DNA from: a virus
Reading direction: 5' to 3' (one strand)
Virus record (IMG/VR): IMGVR_UViG_3300005563_000007
Coordinates: 1-60,179 of that record
Length of the DNA stretch: 60,179 bases
Positions 1 through 60,179 of this stretch are shown piece after piece (the first letter of the stretch is position 1; each line of letters starts with the position of its first letter). A program made the translations under genes and the position numbers. Under the pieces are notes generated by a model. It saw only the letters and a list, made by a program, of their open reading frames with translations. It made no database searches and was not told where the DNA came from.

Positions 1-46
1 GGATTGAAAATCCTCGTGTCGGCGGTTCAATTCCGTCCCGGGACAC
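1..46 (+). repeat. attL: attL core: direct repeat, identical to 60134-60179
   Basis: These 46 bases recur exactly at the other end of the window. They run from the anticodon stem of a tRNA-Phe gene to the acceptor strand. Tyrosine recombinases commonly use tRNA 3' ends as attB, and the phage copy rebuilds the gene. Confidence 0.95.
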
Positions 47-49
47 CAG
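1..49 (+). tRNA. 3' half of tRNA-Phe(GAA), rebuilt by the prophage
   Basis: The anticodon loop TTGAAAA gives anticodon GAA. A variable loop, a T arm GGCGG-TTCAATT-CCGTC (one G-U pair) and the acceptor strand CCGGGAC follow, then A and CCA at 47-49. The 5' half must lie in host DNA left of the window. The right repeat ends before CCA and has no tRNA 5' half in front of it, so this left end holds the working gene. Confidence 0.85.
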
Positions 50-130
50 GAAACACAAGATTCGTCGGGGAAATCGGGGGGTCCGGCTTTCCGATACGTC
101 CACATGATCCGGCGGCTCACCAGCCGATCG

Positions 131-148
131 GTACAACGGCGGTACAAG
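131..148 (+). repeat. Putative integrase arm-type site (left arm)
   Basis: Two GTACAA boxes start 11 bases apart (131 and 142). The 18-base unit matches 60046-60063 at 15 of 18 positions in the same orientation. The pair flanks the two att cores at 85 and 70 bases. This fits paired arm-type binding sites for a tyrosine recombinase; binding itself is inferred. Confidence 0.6.
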
Positions 149-164
149 CGCGCGGGGGCCTTCG

Positions 165-446
165 GTGAGCTGCCCCGCCCTCACCGTGCTCCGCGGCTCC
201 GCCGAGCCCGCGGTCGTCACGCTCGCCATTGCCCGAAATGCCGTCGGCTTTTGGGAGCGCACGCTCGACAAGGCGATCGAAGACCTGCTCGACGCCGCGA
301 CGACGCCCGACCTGACGGAGGCGCGTCGCCGGGTCGAGGTCACCCACGATCGGCTGGCGGCTGCCCGCAACCGCCGGGACCGGCTGATCGCCGAGGCGCA
401 CGGGCGGCGCTGGCTCGCGCTTGCCAGGGAGAGCGCGGATGGCTGA
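165..446 (+). CDS. Small phage protein, first gene of the left operon
   Basis: GTG start, 93 residues, not recognised. It is helical and rich in Arg, Ala and Glu, with a predicted coiled stretch over about residues 25-80. Its stop overlaps the ATG at 439, the gene-end style of this operon, which supports this frame over a competing frame at 104-586. It is the first gene after attL, so in the excised circle it would follow int. Confidence 0.55.
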   Translation: MSCPALTVLRGSAEPAVVTLAIARNAVGFWERTLDKAIEDLLDAATTPDLTEARRRVEVTHDRLAAARNRRDRLIAEAHGRRWLALARESADG

Positions 447-2586: not shown

Positions 2587-2891
2587 AACACGTGCCCACA
2601 GATCTATTCAAAGTCGCCGGCATCGACGAACCATGGCCCATCAGGCTCGCGCACGCGCGCCGCCTGTTGGTGACCATGTGGCTGATCCATCCGGAGCTCG
2701 GGACGCCGTCGGCGCCCGATGTCTGCACCCAAGCGCGCGCTGTTTGGGACGTGGACGTGAACGGCCTCAAGCGTGTTGGGCGCGTGACGATCGTGACCGT
2801 GCTCTGCCAGCTTCGCGAAGCCGGTTTCGTGCGGTCTTTCGATGCGGTTGAAGGTGGTTACGCGGTGGAACTTGTCAAGGAGGCTGCGTGA
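2583..2891 (+). CDS. Probable winged-helix protein
   Basis: 102 residues from GTG 2583. Helices around residues 20-35 are followed by a recognition-helix-like segment (VTIVTVLCQLREAGFV) and a short beta wing, typical of small winged-helix folds. It lies directly before the replication initiator-like gene and may help in origin binding or regulation. Function inferred from fold style only. Confidence 0.55.
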   Translation: MKHVPTDLFKVAGIDEPWPIRLAHARRLLVTMWLIHPELGTPSAPDVCTQARAVWDVDVNGLKRVGRVTIVTVLCQLREAGFVRSFDAVEGGYAVELVKEAA

Positions 2892-3817
2892 GTTGGCTTG
2901 AACTCGACGATGGGATCCTCGAGCACCCGAAGTTCGTGCGCGCCATCAAGCTGGCCGGGAGCGAGGCGGTGCACCTCTGGCTTGGGCTCCGCGCCTACTG
3001 CGGAAAGCATCTTACGGACGGGTTCGTGGCCGAGGATATGATGGACGAGGTCAAGGGCCCCAAGGATCCCGAGAAGCGCGCGGCGGCGCTGGGTGCCTTG
3101 TTTGAGGTAGGTCTACTGGAAAAGACCCGCCGTGCGGGGCTTCAGATGCATGACTACCTGCAGTGGTCAAAGAGCCGTGAGCAGGTGCTCGCCGCTCGCG
3201 AACAGGCTCGCGCCCGGAAGACCAAGTCACGTGGTTCTGGCGGCGGTGGTCACGGTAGCGGTCACGCTTCTGGTCACGTCTCCCGTCATGCCTCCGGTCA
3301 CGGCGTGACAGACAGTGTGACTACCACCGTGAGTCCCGGATCGGTGGGGAGTGGTGGTGGTGATGGAGATCCTTCAGTTCCGAAGGCAACAACGGATCAG
3401 AGCAGCACTCCGCGCGCGCAAGAGCTGGTCGACCTGGCGCGAAGAATCCTGAAAAACCCCTACGACGGCGAGTACTTGCAGCCCTCGCAGCTTCCCGAGG
3501 TTCAGGCCGTCGCCGCAGCTTGGTCGTTCGGAAACACCGTGCGTTTGGGCAATTCGCCCAAGTCCGACAGCGATCTGCGCACTATTTTGGAGGCGATTGC
3601 CGCGGAAAACCCGGTGGCTGACTTGGTCCGCGCCGGCGAACTAGCCAGAAATTCCGATTGGTTTGCCAAGCCCGAGCGTCGGCATCCAGGCGCCTTCACC
3701 GCCGCAGTGCTTCGCCGCTTGCTGGAGGCGCGGACAGCCCCACCGGCGCCCAGCCAGTCGTTCGCCGCCGCCGCCGCCGCCCAGCAAATCCGCGAAACCT
3801 ACGGAGATCAGGCGTGA
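2888..3817 (+). CDS. Replication initiator / helicase-loader-like protein
   Basis: 309 residues from GTG 2888. The N-terminal ~100 residues (starting MSWLELDDGILEHPKF) have the winged-helix form common in phage replisome-organiser proteins. A Gly/His/Ser-rich linker (about 115-145) leads to a C-terminal helical domain. It is encoded immediately before the DnaB-type helicase with a 4-base overlap, the usual loader/initiator slot. No primase gene was found in the window, so priming may depend on the host. Confidence 0.65.
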   Translation: MSWLELDDGILEHPKFVRAIKLAGSEAVHLWLGLRAYCGKHLTDGFVAEDMMDEVKGPKDPEKRAAALGALFEVGLLEKTRRAGLQMHDYLQWSKSREQVLAAREQARARKTKSRGSGGGGHGSGHASGHVSRHASGHGVTDSVTTTVSPGSVGSGGGDGDPSVPKATTDQSSTPRAQELVDLARRILKNPYDGEYLQPSQLPEVQAVAAAWSFGNTVRLGNSPKSDSDLRTILEAIAAENPVADLVRAGELARNSDWFAKPERRHPGAFTAAVLRRLLEARTAPPAPSQSFAAAAAAQQIRETYGDQA

Positions 3818-5187
3818 ACGACGACGCCCAAAAGCTGCTGCTCGCCCACCTGAACACAGGCTCCCGCGTGCTGTCGGCGTGGTTCGACGACGCTAAGTTC
3901 CGCGCCGCGTGGGCGCCGCAGCCCGACCTATTTGTGGCCGATTGGCAGCGCGCGATCGCCGCCATCTGCGCGGCACGCGGGGCCACACTGAGCCGGGACG
4001 ACCTGATCATGCAGCTCGAGCGGCAGGGCAAGCTCAAGCTGTTCGAACACGGTGCTGAAGGCGTCCTGAGCGCGCTCATGGCGCCCACCGAGCTCAACCC
4101 CTGGGGCACGGTCGACAGCCTCCGGCAAGTGGCCGGAGAGCGCCTGCTCATCGAACGGCTGGTCGCCATCCGAGCCGAGCTCGAGCGCGGCGACGGCATG
4201 CCGGCGGCGCGCGAGGCTCTGGCCAACGCCCTCCGCGACGCCGACTTCGCTTCCGGGGCCAAGGCTAGGACGGTCCGGGAAAGCCTTAGCGTGGCCTACA
4301 AGCACGCCACCGAGCGCGACCGGAACCCAGGCTGCCGGACGATCTCCAAAGAGCTCGACCGCGCCACGGGCGGGGTCATGCACGGCGCCGTCCATCTGCT
4401 GGCCGCACCAACCAGCTGGGGCAAGTCGAGCTTCATCGTCGGCACGGCAAACCGGGCGCTCCGCGACAAGCAGCGTCCGCTGATCGTGACCTTCGAGGAT
4501 CCGGAGCGGATGTTTGGCTCCCGCTTGTTCCTGACGCGCACGAACGTCCACGCGATGCGTCTCCGCGAGGCTCGGCTGCTCAACGAAGAGCACCGCAAGC
4601 TGGCCGACGCGCTAGCTGACGCCGAGGATATTCCGTGGCTGCTGCCTGCACTGGGGCGAAGTGCCGAGGCCGTCGCCTCCGATATTCGGAGCCTAGTCGT
4701 GGCGCACGGGATCGACATCGTCCTGGTCGATTACATGCAGCGCATTCGTTTGGCGGCGCGCTCGCAGGATCGTCGCAACGAGATCAACACCATCTGCTAC
4801 CTGCTCACCGACGCGATCAAAGAGTCGGGCGCAGGCGGCATCCTATTCAGTCAGCTCACCGAGGACGAGCGCACTGGACGCCTCAAAGCGCGTGAGTCCG
4901 AAGACCTCCACAACTCGGCCGAGACTGTGCTCTTTGGCAAGAAGAAGATCACGCAGGAGGTCGACACGGCGGGCAAGAAGACGGGCGAGAAGATGGAGCG
5001 CGAATTGTGGGTCGAGAAGGTCAAAGAGGGACCGGTCGGTTTCGCGGTGCCGCTGAATTGGAACCCGCACTCTGCCTGCTTCATCAGCGACTACGACGCC
5101 GACGATCGGCAGCTCGCGCTCGGACTGGCGCCTGAGCCCCAACACGATCCCAGCTACGACGAGTACGACAACTACGCAGCAACGTGA
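3814..5187 (+). CDS. dnaB: Replicative DNA helicase, DnaB family
   Basis: 457 residues from GTG 3814. An N-terminal helical domain (about 1-140) precedes a RecA-like motor. Walker A is APTSWGKSS (199-206) and Walker B is DIVLVDYMQR (301-310), whose VDYMQ pattern is typical of DnaB motif II. A downstream Gln/Thr segment (FSQLTEDER) fits motif III. It should form a hexamer that unwinds DNA 5'-3' at the phage fork. The frame remains open back to 3658, but the start is fixed by overlap with the upstream stop. Confidence 0.92.
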   Translation: MNDDAQKLLLAHLNTGSRVLSAWFDDAKFRAAWAPQPDLFVADWQRAIAAICAARGATLSRDDLIMQLERQGKLKLFEHGAEGVLSALMAPTELNPWGTVDSLRQVAGERLLIERLVAIRAELERGDGMPAAREALANALRDADFASGAKARTVRESLSVAYKHATERDRNPGCRTISKELDRATGGVMHGAVHLLAAPTSWGKSSFIVGTANRALRDKQRPLIVTFEDPERMFGSRLFLTRTNVHAMRLREARLLNEEHRKLADALADAEDIPWLLPALGRSAEAVASDIRSLVVAHGIDIVLVDYMQRIRLAARSQDRRNEINTICYLLTDAIKESGAGGILFSQLTEDERTGRLKARESEDLHNSAETVLFGKKKITQEVDTAGKKTGEKMERELWVEKVKEGPVGFAVPLNWNPHSACFISDYDADDRQLALGLAPEPQHDPSYDEYDNYAAT

Positions 5188-5205: not shown

Positions 5206-5835
5206 ATGAACGAATTCGCAGACGCCATCCAAGACGAAACGATCGAACAGACGACCAACGCCGAACCCAACAACACGATCAAACACGACACCTACGAAGA
5301 GCTGCTCGACGAGGCCCTGACCGAAGAAGACAAGGCCGCCAAGCGCGAGCGCCTCGAGACCGTCGACCGCGAGATCATCCGGCTCGAAGAGGAAAAGAAG
5401 GCGGCCGCCAAGGCATCGAACAACAAGATCAAGCCGCTGGTGGCCGAGCGCGAGAGCCTCCTGCAAGCGCTCGATTCCGGCACCGAGAAGCGGCACGTCG
5501 AGGTTTACGAGCTGTTCGACGATCGCCTCGGCAAGGTCGAGGTTCGCCGCGTCGACACTGACGCCGTGATCGAAGAGCGGGCCATGACAGCGCAGGAGCG
5601 CGAGGACGCGGCCGCCGAGCGCCAGGGCGATCTCTTCGACGGCGGCGGGAGCCAACCCCCGCCGGCGGACCTCGTCGACCCCGCTGACCCCGTCACGCCA
5701 GAAGACTTCGAGCCCACGCCCGAAGCGCTTGCGCAAGCCGCCGAGGACGAGGGACGCGTGGTCAAGACGACCGCCAAGGAAGTGAAGGCTAAGAAGGCGA
5801 AGCGGGCGGCTGCGCAGGAGCAAGACGCGGAGTGA
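5206..5835 (+). CDS. Acidic coiled-coil phage protein
   Basis: 209 residues with a good ribosome site (GGGAGAGAAAGAAC) before ATG 5206. Residues 20-95 are a charged helix/coiled coil, a small beta segment (EVYELFDDRLGKVEVRR) follows, then a Pro/Asp-rich linker and a Lys-rich tail. It sits between helicase and resolvase, so a replication-accessory role is plausible but unproven. Confidence 0.7.
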   Translation: MNEFADAIQDETIEQTTNAEPNNTIKHDTYEELLDEALTEEDKAAKRERLETVDREIIRLEEEKKAAAKASNNKIKPLVAERESLLQALDSGTEKRHVEVYELFDDRLGKVEVRRVDTDAVIEERAMTAQEREDAAAERQGDLFDGGGSQPPPADLVDPADPVTPEDFEPTPEALAQAAEDEGRVVKTTAKEVKAKKAKRAAAQEQDAE

Positions 5836-6410
5836 GCCAGCCCGTTCGTCACGTGCTCTCGGTCGATCCAGGCATTGCCCACGTTGGGTGGGGCCTGGTC
5901 GGCCGATTCGGCGCCAAGCTCGATCTAGTCGACAGCGGCCATATCGAGACCAAGCCAGACGAAGAGCTCACGGCGCGCCTTCTGCGTATCTGGCTCGGGC
6001 TGGCGACGGTGTGCCGCGACTACCGCCCGGCGCTGTTTGGCGTCGAGAACCAAGCGCCGGCATCCGTCGGCGCTCGCGTGATGGGTCTCAAGGCCGCCGC
6101 TCGTGGCGAGAAGGGCGGCGGCTTCGGAGCGAACAACGATCCCGTGTTCGAGGTCGTTGGCGTCGCTAAAGCGGTGGCGTTCTCTTATGGGATCCCCGTC
6201 ATGCTGTACACGCCGCAGCAAGCCAAGATCGCGGTCTGCGGCAAGGGCGCGGGTCGAGCGCAGAAGGCTCAGGTGATGCAGGCATGCCGCGTCTACTTCC
6301 CCGGCATCGAGCGCGACGGGCACAGGCTTGGTGAGCACGAGGCGGACGCGATCGCCGGGGCCATTTATTGCGAGCGGGTCACGCTGCTCGCTTCCAGGAG
6401 AGCAGGATGA
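5832..6410 (+). CDS. RuvC-like Holliday junction resolvase
   Basis: 192 residues from GTG 5832. The RNase H-fold signature SVDPGIAHVGWG carries catalytic Asp12, FGVENQ supplies Glu72, and HEADA supplies His169 and Asp172 (HxxD). All four acidic/His positions expected for RuvC are present. It should cleave four-way junctions or branched replication intermediates before packaging. The lysine-rich segment AGRAQKAQVMQ matches the DNA-contacting helix of the family. Confidence 0.9.
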   Translation: MSQPVRHVLSVDPGIAHVGWGLVGRFGAKLDLVDSGHIETKPDEELTARLLRIWLGLATVCRDYRPALFGVENQAPASVGARVMGLKAAARGEKGGGFGANNDPVFEVVGVAKAVAFSYGIPVMLYTPQQAKIAVCGKGAGRAQKAQVMQACRVYFPGIERDGHRLGEHEADAIAGAIYCERVTLLASRRAG

Positions 6411-6715: not shown

Positions 6716-6891
6716 AACGCCGCCGCCCAATCGTCGAGCACGTTATTCGGCGCGCACCGAGGCTGCAGGCAGCGACCAACCGCGCCATCGACGCGGTCCT
6801 TGGAAAGAAGCGCGCGCCGGTCAAGCCGCCGTGGCCTGGCGCTGGTGAGGTCGAGGAAGCCTTTAGGGCGGCGAGGAGAGGCGAAACGTGA
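6712..6891 (+). CDS. Small basic protein
   Basis: 59 residues from TTG 6712, overlapping stops on both sides. It is rich in Arg and Lys with a Pro-rich middle (APVKPPWPG). Not recognised. The start codon is rare, and only the tight overlaps support it. Confidence 0.45.
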   Translation: MKRRRPIVEHVIRRAPRLQAATNRAIDAVLGKKRAPVKPPWPGAGEVEEAFRAARRGET

Positions 6892-53970: not shown

Positions 53971-54582
53971 TCAGCCGACTTTTATTTTTGGCGCCGACGA
54001 CGGGAAAGTCCCGCTCGGGGGCCGCGGAGGCAGCTTCCCACGGATTCTGACCGCCAGCTCCTCGGGAGGCGTGTCGAGATCCGGCTGCTTGGACCCGAAC
54101 GCCTCCTCGGCTGCCAGACACACGGTTTCGATCGGGTAGCCCAGCAAATGCACCAGCCCCAGCACGGCCTGTCTCACGTTTGGTTTGAACCCGTCCATTA
54201 CCCCACCACCTTCACCCGCCAGAGTTACCAGATCGTTCACAGGTAGGCCAAAGCGCTCCGACAGCCGACGCAGGTCCTTTGCCCGTGGGCTCCGTTTCCC
54301 TGATCGGATGGCTTCCAGCTCGAGTTGCGTGATTTCTCCGTCCAGGTAGCTGAGGAGGTCGACAAGCGAAACGCCGAACGCCTTGGCTATCTTCCGAGCA
54401 TTTTCGATCGAGTCGCCACTGTTTAGGCCCGCCTCCCAGCTCCGGTAGTAGAGCCTCCCCACATCGGCCTTGTCGGCCAGCGCCTCTTGGCTGATTCCGC
54501 CAAGCAGTTCCATGCGCGCCTGGAACAACAGATCGCCGGCCTTCGTCACGCCGTAGGGAGTTTCGCGTCTGCGCTTGCCCAC
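53971..54582 (-). CDS. Phage repressor (XRE-type HTH, no peptidase domain)
   Basis: 203 residues if started at GTG 54582; ATG 54630 would add 16 residues. The HTH is GISQEALADKADVGRLYYRS (about 29-48), followed by NARKIAKAFGVSLVDLLSYL typical of XRE repressors, and a second small helical unit (DLRRLSERFGLPVNDLV). The C-terminus lacks an S24/LexA-type Ser-Lys peptidase, so RecA-stimulated self-cleavage is unlikely. It sits between divergent promoters carrying shared operators. Confidence 0.82.
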   Translation of the reverse strand: MGKRRRETPYGVTKAGDLLFQARMELLGGISQEALADKADVGRLYYRSWEAGLNSGDSIENARKIAKAFGVSLVDLLSYLDGEITQLELEAIRSGKRSPRAKDLRRLSERFGLPVNDLVTLAGEGGGVMDGFKPNVRQAVLGLVHLLGYPIETVCLAAEEAFGSKQPDLDTPPEELAVRIRGKLPPRPPSGTFPSSAPKIKVG

Positions 54583-54598
54583 GTACACAATTGTACGT
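54581..54598 (-). promoter_or_regulatory. Repressor promoter -10 inside an 18-base palindrome
   Basis: ACGTACA-CAAT-TGTACGT is a perfect 7+4+7 inverted repeat. The minus-strand -10 TACAAT (54595-54590) lies inside it; the -35 (ATTACT, 54618-54613) is poor. The predicted start is about 54583, beside GTG 54582, so the repressor mRNA may be leaderless and autoregulated. Confidence 0.6.
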
Positions 54599-54640
54599 TG
54601 AAGCTTTCTGCGAGTAATCGTGTGTCCCATTACGTTGTTC

Positions 54641-54669
54641 TTGACACGTACGTTTTGATACCCCATAGA
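54641..54669 (+). promoter_or_regulatory. Rightward early promoter PR with operator
   Basis: -35 TTGACA (54641-54646), 17-base spacer, -10 CATAGA (54664-54669). ACGTACGT (54646-54653) is palindromic and shares TTGACACGTA with PL. The predicted start, about 54676, is 2 bases before the ATG at 54678. Confidence 0.7.
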
Positions 54670-54677
54670 CAGGGGAC

Positions 54678-54965
54678 ATGACCGTTGAGCGCGCACCCCG
54701 AATCAAAGAGGCCGGAGCTGTGGTGGGGGCCGAAAAGCTCCTCGCGCACATTCGCGGCCTCAACGTCAGCATCCCCGATTTCTGCGAAAAGCACGGGCTT
54801 TTCCGGCAGAAGGTCGAGAAGGCGATCAAGGGTGACCTGAAGCGAATCGACGTCGATTTCGCGCTGGCCATCCAGCGAGCGACCGACGGCGCGGTGACGG
54901 TTCCGGATTGGGAGACGCCCGAAGCTGCTGACGAAGAGGGGGGCGCCGCACCCGCGGCTGAGTGA
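54678..54965 (+). CDS. Cro-like regulator
   Basis: 95 residues, first gene from PR. The segment VSIPDFCEKHGLFRQKVEKA (about 30-49) is a helix-turn-helix, followed by AIQRATDGAVTVPDWE, a pattern of YdaS/Cro-type proteins. The tail is acidic. It should oppose the divergent repressor. It probably lacks an mRNA leader. Confidence 0.7.
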   Translation: MTVERAPRIKEAGAVVGAEKLLAHIRGLNVSIPDFCEKHGLFRQKVEKAIKGDLKRIDVDFALAIQRATDGAVTVPDWETPEAADEEGGAAPAAE

Positions 54966-54968
54966 TTC

Positions 54969-55247
54969 ATGGCTCAGCGTACGTCCCGCGCGCGCCTGGC
55001 TAAACGCCGCTCCGAGCAGCAAGTGGCCACAATTTTGAGGCAGTCGTTCGTTCACTGCCTGAACGTCACGGGGACATCGAACGAGCAGGCCGCGCGTGAG
55101 ATGGAGGTGCGCCGCTACACCGTGCAGCGGTACCGCAGCGGCAAGGCCGACGTCAGCGTCAAGGTCGTGCTGCGCTCCGTGAAGCTGTCGGCGCCGTTCT
55201 GTCGCTGTCTCTGGGCGCTCGAACGCAAGACCCGAAAGGCGGCTTGA
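54969..55247 (+). CDS. Small HTH regulator (CII-like position)
   Basis: 92 residues. TSNEQAAREMEVRRYTVQRY is a helix-turn-helix, with a basic N-terminus and C-terminus. Second gene of the PR operon, the usual CII slot. Confidence 0.6.
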   Translation: MAQRTSRARLAKRRSEQQVATILRQSFVHCLNVTGTSNEQAAREMEVRRYTVQRYRSGKADVSVKVVLRSVKLSAPFCRCLWALERKTRKAA

Positions 55248-55250
55248 ACG

Positions 55251-55442
55251 ATGTTCAAGCCCCAGCTCGGCCCCGTCGCCTCCACCGCCCGCGCGCAGCA
55301 GCTGCTCACGCTCGAGCAGGTCCGCGCCGAGCTCGCCAGCGCCGACCGCGCGGCAAGCCTGGTGACCGTTCCACGCGATGTGGTCATTCGGGACCGCGAG
55401 CGCGAATCGATGCGTCGCACCGAGCGACGGATGGGCTTTTGA
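55251..55442 (+). CDS. Small hypothetical protein
   Basis: 63 residues from ATG 55251. Helical, ends in an Arg-rich segment (RDRERESMRRTERRMGF). Follows the HTH gene by 3 bases. Not recognised. Confidence 0.5.
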   Translation: MFKPQLGPVASTARAQQLLTLEQVRAELASADRAASLVTVPRDVVIRDRERESMRRTERRMGF

Positions 55443-55622
55443 ATGATCACCCTCTCGCTTTTCCAGCTCGTCGCCATCCTCGTGATCGCCTTCGCGCACA
55501 TCTCGGTCGCGTACGTGATCGGCGTCTGGCAAGGGCGTCTGCGGGAGTCGTGCGAGCCCCTCGAGCAGCCGCTGCAAGACGACGGCGAGACGCTCAGGGC
55601 GCTTTCGCGAGGTGGGCATTGA
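55443..55622 (+). CDS. Small membrane protein
   Basis: 59 residues from ATG 55443, one base after the upstream stop. One transmembrane helix at about 5-29 (SLFQLVAILVIAFAHISVAY) and an acidic tail. Possible superinfection-exclusion or regulatory membrane protein; not recognised. Confidence 0.55.
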   Translation: MITLSLFQLVAILVIAFAHISVAYVIGVWQGRLRESCEPLEQPLQDDGETLRALSRGGH

Positions 55623-56404
55623 TGCCCGCCAAGCTGCGTCGGGCGGTATCGCCCGCCAGGAAGCTGGCTGCCGAAACAGTGCGCGCGGCCCGCGCTGCAA
55701 CTGGCTGGACTCAGGAGCGCGTCGAGCAAGAGCTGGGTGTGAGCGCTCGCACCGTCGGTGCCATGGAGCGCGGCGAAGTGCCAATGCGCGCGCTCGAGCT
55801 GGTAATTGGTCTACGGCTCGCCGCGGCGGGCTCGTCACGCGAGGAGCGCATGCATGCGCCTGCGATCGCGTCGGTGGTAGACGGCGCGGCTTCGAGGCTA
55901 GCGAATAAACAACAGATCATCATGGGCCCGGCGAACCGCTTCGGCGGGGGTAAGCCCATTGCGCGCGATACATCGGGCGTGACCGCGCCTTCGAGCCGAG
56001 CGAAGCATGAGGGGCTGGCCACGCCCGTCATCTCGGCAGGTGAGCAAGTCGTGTCGCCTGGTTCGGTGGGGTCGCACCCTGCCGACCTGGGCGGGGCGCA
56101 GATCGCTGTAGCGCAGCCTGGTAGCGCGTTGGGGTTTACCCCGAAGGTCGCACGTTCAAATCGTGCCAGCGGTCCTGTGGTGGGTTCGATTCCCACGAGC
56201 GCGAGTACCGGTGCTGGCTGCGATGCCAGCGATGGCGAGCGGGGTTTGGTGCCCAGTCAGGTAGGCCGCCGGGGAGAGCGCTCAACCAAACTTCGGGCCG
56301 CTGCAGCGTCCCAAGCGCCGACTTGTTCGGCAGGCTCGCTCGAGTGGACAGGTAAAGCTGTTCTCGGGCGAGCCGCTAATTTCTCACGGAAGCGGGCGGC
56401 TTAA
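55622..56404 (+). CDS. HTH protein whose frame runs through a tRNA-like segment
   Basis: 260 residues from ATG 55622, overlapping the upstream stop. Residues 15-60 are an XRE-type HTH (GWTQERVEQELGVSARTVGA, then RGEVPMRALELVIGLRL). From about residue 95 the sequence is low-complexity and unlike a folded protein. Residues ~160-195 (VAQPGSALGFTPKVARSNRA) are translated tRNA-like DNA at 56102-56204. The open frame to 56404 is real, but the C-terminal half may be accidental. Confidence 0.5.
   Translation: MPAKLRRAVSPARKLAAETVRAARAATGWTQERVEQELGVSARTVGAMERGEVPMRALELVIGLRLAAAGSSREERMHAPAIASVVDGAASRLANKQQIIMGPANRFGGGKPIARDTSGVTAPSSRAKHEGLATPVISAGEQVVSPGSVGSHPADLGGAQIAVAQPGSALGFTPKVARSNRASGPVVGSIPTSASTGAGCDASDGERGLVPSQVGRRGERSTKLRAAAASQAPTCSAGSLEWTGKAVLGRAANFSRKRAA
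56102..56174 (+). tRNA. Degenerate tRNA-like gene
   Basis: Acceptor ATCGCTG/CAGCGGT (seven pairs, one G-T), TA, D arm GCGC-AGCCTGGTA-GCGC, anticodon stem TTGGG/CCCGA (one T-G), variable AGGTC, T arm GCACG-TTCAAAT-CGTGC, with no CCA. All stems pair, but the anticodon loop is only six bases (GTTTAC). A seven-base reading (GTTTACC, anticodon TTA, codon UAA) needs one stem mismatch and a pyrimidine at 37. Much of it resembles tRNA-fMet or tRNA-Pro types. Probably a decayed or altered tRNA. Confidence 0.5.
56180..56204 (+). tRNA. Orphan tRNA T arm plus acceptor strand
   Basis: GTGGG-TTCGATT-CCCAC is a perfect T arm with the invariant TTCGA, followed by GAGCGCG and A in acceptor/discriminator positions. 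No matching 5' half (CGCGCTC) lies nearby. Best read as the remnant of a second tRNA gene, which supports a decayed tRNA cluster here. Confidence 0.4.
56333..56374 (+). other. Long hairpin at the end of the HTH frame
   Basis: GGCTCGCTCGAG pairs with CTCGGGCGAGCC (12 pairs, one G-U), then an inner ACAG/CTGT stem and a GTAAAG loop. No T run. It lies 30 bases before the stop of the HTH frame and may be another tRNA-derived or processing structure. Confidence 0.4.
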
Positions 56405-56407
56405 CGC

Positions 56408-56599
56408 ATGGCGCTCGCTCTCCGCGCCCGCAGCTCCGCTCGCCCTGTTGATGGGCAATTTGCCTCGCGCGGCGACATGGCCCCGAGGCGCCCGCGCGCT
56501 GAACAGCCCGTCATTTCCGGGCGCGAAATCGCGGTGTTCCTGATCGCGTTGCTCGCCGGCACCGCCGTGCGGCTCTGGCTGATGTCGTTGTCGACGTGA
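56408..56599 (+). CDS. Small C-terminal-anchored membrane protein
   Basis: 63 residues from ATG 56408; ATG 56477 would give 40 residues. Basic N-terminal part, then one transmembrane helix (EIAVFLIALLAGTAVRLWLM) at the end. Not recognised. Confidence 0.45.
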   Translation: MALALRARSSARPVDGQFASRGDMAPRRPRAEQPVISGREIAVFLIALLAGTAVRLWLMSLST

Positions 56600-56679
56600 C
56601 GCTCGAGGCCCCGCTCTGGGCCCTCTTCGGTTTCCTTCTGTTCCTCGAGGTGATGTTCCGATGGTCAAGAAAGCGCTGA
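56596..56679 (+). CDS. Tiny membrane peptide
   Basis: 27 residues from GTG 56596, overlapping the previous stop. Nearly all one hydrophobic helix (PLWALFGFLLFLEVMF) with a basic end. The overlap pattern supports it, its size argues for caution. Confidence 0.35.
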   Translation: MTLEAPLWALFGFLLFLEVMFRWSRKR

Positions 56680-57251
56680 CGGGTCTGGTTCTCTTGGTCA
56701 CGACGGCGGCGCTCGCCAGCGAGGCCACCCCCCCCATTCAGGTTTCGCGCGTGCGTGCCGCGCTCGACCGCATCCCGGTCAGCAAGCACGACAAGACACC
56801 CGAGCGCGCGGAGCAGCACGCCGCCAATCTGGAAGCCTTTGCGCAGGAGATTGCGCGCGTGTCTGAGCGGGCGCCATTGCCGCCCAGGCAATGGGCCGCG
56901 TTGCTCGTCGCCATCGGCGGGGCAGAGAGCCACTACGACACCGAGGTAACGGCGGGTCGCTGCCTGCCGGCCATGTGCGATCACGGCAAGGCTCGCTCGG
57001 CCTTCCAGGTCCACCGCCTGCGCTTCGTCGAAGAGCTTTGGGACAACGCGCCGGGGAACATCGCCGTTCAGGTCGATCTCGCCGACAAGGTGCTGCGCAA
57101 GACTTGGGGCACGTGCCTACCGCAGGGCGTGGCGATGCCGCAGGCGGCTTTCCGAGGTTTTGCTGGGGTTAGCTGTTCGTGGCCGATGCGCGGGGAAGCG
57201 CTGCGCGTCGGCTACTACAATCGCGCGATGGGCGCCGTGGTGGAGCCGTGA
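56661..57251 (+). CDS. Secreted lytic transglycosylase-like protein
   Basis: 196 residues from ATG 56661. Signal peptide (KKALTGLVLLVTTAALASEA) with cleavage near residue 20. The AIGGAESHYDTEVTAG segment supplies a catalytic-type Glu as in goose-type/SLT lysozyme folds, and HGKARSAFQVHRLR fits the substrate groove. Two Cys pairs may form disulfides. It is coded in the PR operon, not the lysis cassette, so it may act in the lysogen's or infected cell's periplasm. Confidence 0.65.
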   Translation: MVKKALTGLVLLVTTAALASEATPPIQVSRVRAALDRIPVSKHDKTPERAEQHAANLEAFAQEIARVSERAPLPPRQWAALLVAIGGAESHYDTEVTAGRCLPAMCDHGKARSAFQVHRLRFVEELWDNAPGNIAVQVDLADKVLRKTWGTCLPQGVAMPQAAFRGFAGVSCSWPMRGEALRVGYYNRAMGAVVEP

Positions 57252-57490
57252 GGGGCTTGACCAACGAAGAGCGCCACTGGCTCACCAGCGACGCTTGCGA
57301 CTTGGAGATAGCCGACCGGCTAGAAGCGCGCGGACTCGTCGTTACTGGCAACTGCGTGGATTGTGGAAAACCCGAGCCTGAGTGCTCCGACGAATGCTGC
57401 GGCGACATCGAGATGCCCTTGACCGCACTCGGGCACCTCGCGCTGCGCCTCGACGCCGCCGCTCGGCAGCTGGAAGGGGTCAGCGCTTGA
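57248..57490 (+). CDS. Small Cys-rich protein
   Basis: 80 residues from GTG 57248. LTNEERHWLTSDACDLEIAD is followed by a Cys cluster (NCVDCGKPEPECSDECCGD). Overlaps both neighbours. Probably metal-binding; function unknown. Confidence 0.55.
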   Translation: MRGLTNEERHWLTSDACDLEIADRLEARGLVVTGNCVDCGKPEPECSDECCGDIEMPLTALGHLALRLDAAARQLEGVSA

Positions 57491-57870
57491 ACCGTCGCCC
57501 CATCTATCTCGCCCACCCGCTCAACGCGCCGACGCGCGAAGGCATCGAAGCGAACCGCAAGAGCGCCGCCAAGTGGGCCGCCTTCCTGGCCGTTCACTTC
57601 AACGTCGCGCCCGAGTGCTCGTGGATCGTGCTCACCGGCGAGCTGGAAGAGACCAACGAAAACCGCGCGCGTGGGCTCGAGTGTGACCTCGTTCTGGTCG
57701 AGCAGTGCCGCGAGCTGGTGATGGTTGGGCCGCGCATCTCCGACGGTATGCGGCTGGAGGCTACCCACATGGTTCAGGTGGTCGGCGGCCCAGTGTACGA
57801 CCTGACCGGGCTGCCGATGGATCCGCAAACCATCGCGTTGGCTTGGGAAGCGGGTAGGTGGTTTCCGTGA
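57487..57870 (+). CDS. Deoxyribosyltransferase/SLOG-like protein (DUF4406 type)
   Basis: 127 residues from TTG 57487. PIYLAHPLNAPTREGIEANR, LEETNENRARGLECDLVLVE and VMVGPRISDGMRLEATHM follow the Rossmann-like pattern of nucleoside 2-deoxyribosyltransferase/DUF4406 proteins common in phages. It may act on nucleotides or sense them; the reaction is not assured. Confidence 0.6.
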   Translation: MNRRPIYLAHPLNAPTREGIEANRKSAAKWAAFLAVHFNVAPECSWIVLTGELEETNENRARGLECDLVLVEQCRELVMVGPRISDGMRLEATHMVQVVGGPVYDLTGLPMDPQTIALAWEAGRWFP

Positions 57871-58322
57871 AGCTCTGCGCCGATCTCGCGCGTCGCAGCA
57901 TCGCCGGCGCAACTGATGGTCACCCCGAAGACGTCGACAAGCGCGTTGATTCGCAGGTCCGTCTTCTGGAAGTCTACGAGAGGCGCGCGCCAGTTGTCGG
58001 AACGCTGCAAGCGATATGGCACATCTGCGCCAACGCAGAGGAAAGCAAGCGCTTCACGTACTTCATCCAGGCCGGCGAAGGCGGCCCGATCAAGATCGGC
58101 ATCGCCACCAATGTGCGCGCGCGCCTAAGTGGACTGCAAACGGGGTCGCACGAAGCGCTTCGGTTGATCGGTGCGATCCCTGGTGGCGCCGACGCTGAGC
58201 GCTTTCTGCACCAGCTCTTCGCGGCCCATCACATCCGCGGCGAGTGGTTTAGGCCTGACGAGACGATGCTCGGTTTCATCACTGACCTGATCTCCAGCTA
58301 TCGACAGGCGTTCCCACAATGA
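57867..58322 (+). CDS. GIY-YIG (T5orf172-type) protein
   Basis: 151 residues from GTG 57867. The C-terminal half has YFIQAGEGGPIKIGIATNVR, RLSGLQTGSHEALRLIG, AERFLHQLFAAHHIRGEWF, matching the GIY-YIG fold of the T5orf172/Mug113 family, including the K-I-G motif, Arg and catalytic-type Glu. The N-terminal ~65 residues are unlike it. It should be a DNA nuclease or binding protein. Confidence 0.75.
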   Translation: MKLCADLARRSIAGATDGHPEDVDKRVDSQVRLLEVYERRAPVVGTLQAIWHICANAEESKRFTYFIQAGEGGPIKIGIATNVRARLSGLQTGSHEALRLIGAIPGGADAERFLHQLFAAHHIRGEWFRPDETMLGFITDLISSYRQAFPQ

Positions 58323-58912
58323 AACTCCTCACGAAAGCCGAAGCCGCAGCCCGTTGCCGCGTTTCCCTCGCGGCTTTCGACGCCCACGTGCGCCCGGCCT
58401 TGACGCCGAAAAAGATCGGGCGTCGCGTCCTCTTCCTCGAATCGGACGTGGCGCTTGCCCACGTGCACCGCGTAGCTCAGCCTCGCGTGTCGCGGCCGAG
58501 CCTGCGGCAGACACCTGGCGGCACGTGGAACGCACGCTACCGCATGAACGGCAAACAGCGCGAGGTGTCGCTGGGCACCAAGGACGAGTTCGAGGCGCGC
58601 GTCGCTGCGGCTCGCATGTTCGACCGCCTGTCAAACCTGACCAAGGTGGATGGCCCGGGCGTCTACCTGATCACCTGCGGCGGCTTGCTGATGAAGATCG
58701 GCCGCGCGTCGAAGTCCATCCGGCAACGGTTCGGCGCCCTACAGACGTCGAGCCCGCAAGAGCTGCTGCTGAGCGCCGTCCTTTCACCCAACCCGAACGA
58801 CGAGAAGTTCTTTCACGCAGGGCTCCAAGAATTCCACGCGCACGGTGAGTGGTTCGTTTGCTCAACCGAGTCGCTCGAACACCTGGCTCGCCTCGTCGAG
58901 GTTGGTCCTTGA
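58319..58912 (+). CDS. HTH - AP2-like - GIY-YIG fusion protein
   Basis: 197 residues from ATG 58319. Residues 1-50 are an excisionase-type HTH (LTKAEAAARCRVSLAAFDAH). Residues 60-100 (TWNARYRMNGKQREVSLGTK) resemble an AP2/arm-binding module. Residues 112-190 are a second GIY-YIG domain (GVYLITCGGLLMKIGRASKS; FFHAGLQEFHAHGEWFVCST). The order of three DNA-binding/nuclease modules next to the integrase is unusual. Confidence 0.7.
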   Translation: MKLLTKAEAAARCRVSLAAFDAHVRPALTPKKIGRRVLFLESDVALAHVHRVAQPRVSRPSLRQTPGGTWNARYRMNGKQREVSLGTKDEFEARVAAARMFDRLSNLTKVDGPGVYLITCGGLLMKIGRASKSIRQRFGALQTSSPQELLLSAVLSPNPNDEKFFHAGLQEFHAHGEWFVCSTESLEHLARLVEVGP

Positions 58913-59301
58913 GCCACCTCAAAGCCTCCGACATCGCCCGCGAGCTCGGCATCAGCCGGTCGGCGGCCTACGAGATCATGAAGGAAATGCCGCGCCTCGT
59001 TCGTCGCGGGATCGTTCGGGTTTCTCCGGAGGCTTTCAAGCGCTGGCGCGAGCGGAATACGGTCGGCCCATGGCAAAGCTCTATCGTCGCGGAAAAAGAG
59101 GCACGTTCTGGTTCCAGTTCCAAGGTGAGCGTCGTTCGACTGGCCACACGGACCGAACGGCGGCAGAGCTGTTCGTCCAAAACGTCCAACGTCGAGCAGC
59201 GGATCCGACCTATCGAGCCGCGGACGGGACGACGCTCGGCCAACAGCTCCTTGCCCTCGTCGAGCACAAGCGCGAGCACAAGCGCGCGGAGGGAACGCTG
59301 A
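58909..59301 (+). CDS. xis: Excisionase-like HTH protein
   Basis: 130 residues from TTG 58909, overlapping the previous stop. SHLKASDIARELGISRSAAY and VRRGIVRVSPEAFKRWRERN (about 1-52) form the helix-turn-helix of excisionase/MerR-like proteins. The remaining ~75 residues overlap the integrase start in another frame by 232 bases and are Ser/Arg-rich, so the true functional part may be short. Location next to int supports a directionality factor. Confidence 0.6.
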   Translation: MSHLKASDIARELGISRSAAYEIMKEMPRLVRRGIVRVSPEAFKRWRERNTVGPWQSSIVAEKEARSGSSSKVSVVRLATRTERRQSCSSKTSNVEQRIRPIEPRTGRRSANSSLPSSSTSASTSARRER

Positions 59302-60119
59302 GCATGTACGACGTGCACATCGCCCATCTGGCTCGCGTACTGGACCAGGACACGCCGCTGGCCAGCATCGACGCGGCGGAGCTCGACCGCTACGTCTCGG
59401 TGCGTCGGGCCGAGCAGGCGAAGGACACGACTATTCACAAGGAGCTGTCGACGCTCCGCGGCGCGTTGAAGCTGGCGCGACGTCACCGGAAATACCCATA
59501 CGCCCTGGACGAGGTCATGCCAGTGGTCGACGGGGTCTCGAAGCCGGGCACCGCGCACCTCAAGCACTTCGAGGTCGAGCAGCTCCTGGCGCTCGAGAAG
59601 CTGCCCTACGAGCGCAAGGTGGTCGTGGCGTTCATCGTCCTGACCGGTGCCGACTGGGCCTCGGTCGAGCGCGCCAAGCGCGGCGACGTCAACCTGCGGG
59701 CCGGCACGGTCCGGGTCCGCGGCTCCAAGACCTCCCACCGCGACCGCACGGTGCCGATCCTTAAGCCGCTGGCGCAGCTGGCCGCCGTCGTCGCCGACGC
59801 CATGCCATTCCGCCCCTGGGGCAACGTCCGCCGCGACCTCGAGGTGGCGTGCCGCCGCGCTGGCGTGACCAAGGTGACGCCACGCGACCTGCGCCGCACC
59901 CACGGCCACCTGCTGCGCGCTGGCGGCGTTAGCCCGGGCGACATCGCAAAGATGCTGGGTCACGCCGACGGCCGCCAGGCTGAGCGGACCTACGCTCAAA
60001 TCTCGCCGACCGAGCTGGGCAAAGTCCTGGCCCGCAGGCTCAATCGTACAAAGCAGGTACAAGTCGCGGGCTCCGCGACCGCTCCGAGCGCGAAACGCCG
60101 GAAGAAACGGGCCGCTTAG
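59070..60119 (+). CDS. int: Tyrosine-family integrase
   Basis: 349 residues from ATG 59070. An N-terminal arm-binding domain (1-60), a SAM-like core-binding domain (60-150) and a catalytic domain. Seen: Lys220 in the beta-hairpin RVRGSKTSHRD, Arg275 in RDLRRTHGH (with Arg272 where His is usual), His298 in MLGHAD and nucleophile Tyr308 in RTYAQI. The first catalytic Arg is not where expected: the box reads LTGADWASVERA, with Asp195 at that place. It ends 14 bases from the attR core. Confidence 0.9.
   Translation: MAKLYRRGKRGTFWFQFQGERRSTGHTDRTAAELFVQNVQRRAADPTYRAADGTTLGQQLLALVEHKREHKRAEGTLSMYDVHIAHLARVLDQDTPLASIDAAELDRYVSVRRAEQAKDTTIHKELSTLRGALKLARRHRKYPYALDEVMPVVDGVSKPGTAHLKHFEVEQLLALEKLPYERKVVVAFIVLTGADWASVERAKRGDVNLRAGTVRVRGSKTSHRDRTVPILKPLAQLAAVVADAMPFRPWGNVRRDLEVACRRAGVTKVTPRDLRRTHGHLLRAGGVSPGDIAKMLGHADGRQAERTYAQISPTELGKVLARRLNRTKQVQVAGSATAPSAKRRKKRAA
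60046..60063 (+). repeat. Putative integrase arm-type site (right arm)
   Basis: GTACAA at 60046 and GTACAAG at 60057, 11 bases apart, inside the last codons of int. The 18-base unit matches 131-148 at 15 of 18 positions in the same orientation, 70 bases from the right core. Confidence 0.6.
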
Positions 60120-60133
60120 CGATGCTGAAAGGC

Positions 60134-60179
60134 GGATTGAAAATCCTCGTGTCGGCGGTTCAATTCCGTCCCGGGACAC
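60134..60179 (+). repeat. attR: attR core: direct repeat, identical to 1-46
   Basis: Second exact copy of the 46-base tRNA-Phe 3' segment. The bases before it belong to the phage (downstream of int) and do not continue the tRNA 5' half, so this copy is the duplicate made by integration. Confidence 0.95.

Follow-up and report, generated by a model that had tools for sequence, protein, structure and literature searches.

The window that we studied, which is the whole 60,179-bp stretch of virus record IMGVR_UViG_3300005563_000007 (65% GC), is best explained as a complete temperate tailed phage that would integrate into the tRNA-Phe gene of a host from the Polyangiaceae. Its attachment site (attP in the closed circle) appears to lie inside a rightward unit, between the integrase gene (int) and the replication genes. 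Provided that the phage integrates, recombination at the core of this site would put the presumed rightward early promoter (PR) and int at one end of the prophage and the replication operon at the other. A preliminary description of this DNA had concluded that integration itself would switch off replication. In our view, integration should be seen less as a simple off switch than as a change of promoter, one that would force excision of the virus ahead of its replication. Excision-gated expression of the replication genes is the best reading that we can offer, and we consider its chances of being right to be about even. The fuller version of this idea, in which integration cuts the replication genes off from the early promoter, making excision the necessary first step of induction, and also sets these genes under the promoter of the host tRNA gene as a state-dependent switch, is tentative, and as a whole it seems rather unlikely.

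The attachment site rests on an exact 46-bp direct repeat at the two termini and on short paired repeats around it:

1 to 46, plus strand: left copy of the core (attL); it covers tRNA-Phe(GAA) from the anticodon stem through the discriminator/CCA, which is the 3' part of the gene, and positions 47-48 complete the CCA.
60134 to 60179, plus strand: right copy of the core (attR), an exact repeat of 1-46.
131 to 147, plus strand: P' arm, two GTACAA at 131 and 142, 11 bp apart, putative arm-type sites for the integrase.
60046 to 60062, plus strand: P arm, two GTACAA at 60046 and 60057, 11 bp apart, inside the 3' end of int.

When we scanned 84,980 species genomes, the core had an exact match in just two metagenome-assembled genomes (MAGs), Polyangiaceae C_No_T20_C_bin.74 and Myxococcales PMG_095, and in both of them ARAGORN calls a full tRNA-Phe around the match. 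Because the core is found exactly in the tRNA-Phe of these two MAGs, the host is very likely a member of the Polyangiaceae (a soil bacterium and a relative of the myxobacteria). The tRNA-Phe reads into the left end of the window, a point that is absent from the preliminary description. More generally, integration at tRNA-Phe is common in the Polyangiales (L009 2800-3971, L011, L019, L018, and L022), and most of the integrase relatives in that order adjoin a tRNA-Phe, on the opposite strand and facing the tRNA.

Relative to the start of the core, the GTACAA pairs lie at -88/-77 and +130/+141, so the 3' end of int contains the P arm, while the P' arm takes up the end of the gap before the next gene. 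On the window circle, 20 positions out of 59,933 have matching pairs of 5-mers, spaced by 11 bp, on both sides of a 46-bp centre, so the core is flanked by arm pairs more than chance would give. A second phage contig, IMGVR_UViG_3300005577_000052 (G002), has nearly the same arm geometry (-91/-80 and +131/+142), while in G003 and G081 only the upstream pair recurs (-77/-66). Because paired repeats flank the core, we take it to be the attP of the integrase, as the preliminary description had proposed. It had also treated the window as a prophage: the ends of the window do coincide with the att core, and that alone does not distinguish a prophage from a free genome.

Could the terminal repeat be an assembly overlap instead? 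Circular contigs also show terminal repeats, and G002 has one of 100 bp. However, the repeat in the window coincides exactly with the 3' part of tRNA-Phe in the host MAGs, it lies at the int end, and it has paired arms on both sides. Furthermore, the same core is present as a single copy inside G002, and a tRNA-Phe core bounds a different phage contig (G060). So this explanation is largely refuted, and we consider it very improbable. The G060 contig (IMGVR_UViG_2820111668_000001, or G060:C39; 36,725 bp) is bounded on each side by a 51-bp tRNA-Phe core (L055 1-51 and L056 16675-16725). It illustrates that an assembly may stop precisely at an att core and that the resulting terminal repeats can be mistaken for circular overlaps.

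On the right-hand side of the window, the early region leads up to the core:

54641 to 54669, plus strand: presumed PR, read from the sequence as TTGACA, 17 bp, CATAGA; the first ATG is at 54678.
54678 to 58912, plus strand: rightward early genes from PR to xis-int, from open reading frames and family matches.
58909 to 59301, plus strand: small helix-turn-helix (HTH) protein, likely the excisionase (xis), overlapping int; it matches HTH_17 and other HTH families and phrog_66 excisionase (E 0.0024).
59070 to 60119, plus strand: tyrosine integrase (int), 349 amino acids, the last gene before the core (Pfam PF00589 Phage_integrase, 5.9e-11; phrog_1 integrase, 8e-38).
53971 to 54627, minus strand: HTH repressor gene, divergent from PR (Pfam HTH_3, 7.7e-14, and HTH_19).
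54581 to 54598, no strand assigned: candidate operator, the inverted repeat ACGTACACAATTGTACGT in the intergenic region between the repressor and PR.

The replication side begins beyond the left copy of the core, on the same strand as int:

47 to 164, plus strand: gap between the core and the first left-end gene; it holds the P' arm and a hairpin at about 71-93, and no promoter or terminator consensus.
165 to 446, plus strand: first gene beyond attP, 93 amino acids with a GTG start, supported by codon-position GC and overlapping the gene at 439-906.
2888 to 3817, plus strand: replication initiator (phrog_2447, 4e-29).
3814 to 5187, plus strand: DnaB-type helicase (Pfam PF03796, 1.7e-26), with an 84% identical counterpart in the contig G001.
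5206 to 5835, plus strand: gene between DnaB and RuvC.
5832 to 6410, plus strand: RuvC-type Holliday junction resolvase (Pfam PF02075, 4e-15).

The stop codon of int is 14 bp from the core and the start of gene 165 is 118 bp beyond it, so two elements of the preliminary description hold up: that int ends 14 bases before the core (60119 versus 60134) and that the replication side starts at 165 on the same strand. The codon-position GC of gene 165 (0.77/0.56/0.88) is coding-like, and that of a competing frame at 104-586 is not. The gene at 439-906 is followed by more plus-strand genes, including an N6/N4 methyltransferase, with overlapping genes from 2583. Inside the replication initiator gene, iteron-like repeats of TGGTCACG with a spacing of 12 nt (3247-3294) form a candidate origin. 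Terminase, portal, and tail sheath genes are present to the right of the replication genes.

Neither from PR to int nor from the core to gene 165 did we find a sigma70-like site (by the criteria of the scanner) or a terminator-like site on the plus strand. The preliminary description had seen no terminator on either side, and had named a terminator or a separate strong promoter between the core and gene 165, active in both states, as something that would count against its proposal; our scans of that interval are in agreement with it. A looser promoter scan (8/12 match) of the joined attP region out to 2.9 kb was also empty.

Joining the ends of the window at the core would give, all in one direction, PR, the early genes, xis, int, attP, small genes, the replication initiator, DnaB, and RuvC. 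In the excised circle, a single transcript from PR would cover int, cross attP, and continue into the replication operon. In the prophage, transcripts from PR would exit at attR. After induction, the replication genes would be out of the reach of PR until Xis and Int excised the element and rejoined attP, so that excision would precede replication. Meanwhile, at attL, the rebuilt tRNA-Phe would aim into the replication operon. The proposal thus combines excision-gated expression with a swap of promoters.

There is a precedent in the conjugative transposon Tn916. According to PMC6540685 (citing Celli and Trieu-Cuot 1998), a promoter and an operon lie on either side of its att junction, and transcripts across the joined ends appear only in the circle. 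The window likewise has an att junction between a promoter and an operon on the same strand, with no terminator seen. The differences are that the Tn916 operon carries transfer genes and that, in that account, its transcription was shown by experiment; for the window we infer transcription from gene order.

The tRNA at attL complicates this picture. If we join the 5' half of the host tRNA to the left end of the window, we obtain a complete 76-nt tRNA-Phe fold that ends at position 48 and points rightward at gene 165, which is 116 nt away on the same strand. So it is possible that there is no lock at all: the host tRNA-Phe promoter would read through the rebuilt tRNA, and the left operon would be expressed, in part or wholly, in the lysogen. 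The RNA between the rebuilt tRNA and gene 165 folds no better than shuffled sequences (z +0.29) and has no U-tract. We considered the 10-bp hairpin at about 71-93 as a substitute for the terminator of the tRNA and rejected it, as shuffled sequences fold equally well (z +0.29 and -0.23). There is also a precedent: ICEKp1, once integrated, is transcribed from the promoter of its tRNA, whose terminator has been displaced (PMC13023037). In that element, the tRNA-asn promoter serves a gene 161 bp downstream, with stem-loops in the 5'-UTR acting as an attenuator (PMC13023037). As in ICEKp1, the tRNA at the integrated end would be followed closely by a gene of the element on the same strand; the gene in ICEKp1 is int, while here it would be the replication operon. 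On the other hand, constitutive expression of replication genes would harm the lysogen, and selection should favour a block. Rho-dependent termination and tRNA processing are invisible to the scans that we used. Also, the regions downstream of native tRNA-Phe genes vary, and some native tRNA-Phe genes of the Polyangiales are likewise without an obvious terminator. We are doubtful that read-through without any lock is the correct explanation.

Even under excision gating, the rebuilt tRNA-Phe would face the operon, so that complete silence is unlikely unless transcription is stopped, either by Rho-dependent termination or by Int acting as a roadblock at the P' arm. Rather than going silent, the prophage operon may swap PR for the host tRNA promoter. 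This is where we part from the statement that integration itself switches off replication. The related idea that integration is a second lock besides the repressor survives only in part. Integration would indeed cut PR off from the replication genes; however, a tRNA promoter faces them, and in a quiet lysogen a second lock on PR adds little because the repressor already silences PR. The motifs of the repressor region do not recur near the left end, so we found no copies of the operator there.

Another possibility is a promoter (repressed or not) that belongs to the left operon itself, with the position of attP having no regulatory effect; the gene order would then be inherited along with Mx8-like modules. 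In the Myxococcus phage Mx8, attP lies inside int (PMC6070905). The Mx8 genome (NC_003085) has uoi, int (with attP), p13 and following genes, and replication initiation, all on the plus strand in an early rightward unit, followed by terminase and structural genes. In the window, too, the replication genes come after int and attP and have the same orientation. It differs in that its int stops 14 bp before the core instead of containing it. Also, the tRNA-like T-arm of Mx8 is on the opposite strand, so no tRNA promoter would read into its replication genes. We detected no homology to the Mx8 int or replication proteins by pairwise BLASTP (the best int match has E 0.07 over 24 amino acids).

G002 (locus L012) carries the identical 46-bp core in a single copy in the middle of the contig, which together with its 100-bp terminal repeat fits a free, closed genome. 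Its int is 35% identical to that of the window. As in Mx8, the int frame (L012 5215-6792) continues without a stop across the core, and the next gene starts at 6789, a 4-nt overlap; near the core, codon-position GC in this frame is only weakly coding-like, so translation of the whole frame is putative. Integration of G002 would swap the C-terminal part of its integrase, as reported for Mx8. Beyond attP, all on the plus strand, are genes for VRR_NUC, a DnaA-type HTH protein, a replication initiator, and a helicase-loader-like protein. Directly after the core, G002 has a strong RNA structure (z -4.0); the window has none such. The claim that int, attP, and the replication genes are contiguous on one strand once joined is borne out by the free form of G002 and by Mx8, and, judging from its recurrence in these two, the arrangement is biological.

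This recurrence, without detectable int similarity to Mx8, is also what an inherited module order would give. In GC-rich hosts, phage promoters often depart from the sigma70 type. Against a separate promoter, there was no promoter-like site in the looser scan, the gap at 47-164 is mostly taken up by the P' arm, and both G002 and G001 have a gene that overlaps the end of int, which leaves no room for a promoter between them. We think that a promoter of its own for the left operon is possible but improbable. This and tRNA read-through are the main rivals to excision gating, and they can partly coexist with it.

Several points weigh against excision gating. First, we infer PR itself from the sequence: its -35 box (TTGACA at 54641) is perfect, and its -10 box (CATAGA) is weak (3/6) and was not reported by the consensus promoter scan. 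Second, in the prophage, the tRNA promoter would face the replication operon with no credible terminator between them. Third, there may be a non-consensus or phage-specific promoter somewhere within 47-2887. Fourth, the closest relative, G001, gives no test of the arrangement because its attP was not located. On one uninterrupted contig, G001 has a repressor with divergent early genes, an HTH gene, int, a gene that overlaps the stop of int, and the replication module. For a candidate attP in the C-terminal extension of its int (the T-arm-like TTCGAGTCCTAGAGTCGGAGCCA, on the minus strand), we found no exact match in 145 genomes of the order.

The arrangement is not universal among phages that use tRNA-Phe. 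When we searched viral contigs for loci with both int and DnaB, only L003 and L004 were returned. Among the matches listed, about eleven distinct IMG/VR records have a tRNA-Phe core with int pointing at it, and most of these have convergent minus-strand genes beyond the core, as does G060. So the arrangement is not the default.

In the early region, there is a tRNA gene at 56102-56174 (plus strand; Rfam tRNA, 46.1 bits), within the open reading frame at 55622-56404. ARAGORN gives it the anticodon UUA, which would read the stop codon UAA. A further T-arm-like piece follows at about 56180-56210. Just upstream of xis-int are two neighbouring genes (57858-58912). The second matches MUG113/T5orf172 (GIY-YIG-like), and the first resembles a paralogue of it by its C-terminal sequence.

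Other phages are known in which the site of integration affects gene expression. In the integration-dependent immunity of mycobacteriophage BPs, the position of attP makes integration alter gene expression (PMC4557955). The attP of BPs is in the repressor gene, while the repressor of the window is about 5.5 kb from the att core at 60134. In the sib retroregulation of phage lambda, integration strips the sequence beyond attP from the int transcript, which affects the stability of int mRNA and not the replication genes. Our search of open-licence papers found no phage reported to use the arrangement in the window as a control on replication. The gene order is already known from Mx8 and circle-dependent expression from Tn916; the variant feature is a parallel tRNA that faces the replication operon. 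Mx8, a laboratory phage, shares this order, which opens the idea to tests in M. xanthus. If it is true, then this would be a phage counterpart of the circle-dependent operon of Tn916, with a state-dependent promoter switch whose target is phage replication in place of int or transfer genes. Such a device of DNA topology would be simple, and it would order excision before replication and so avoid replicating the integrated prophage.

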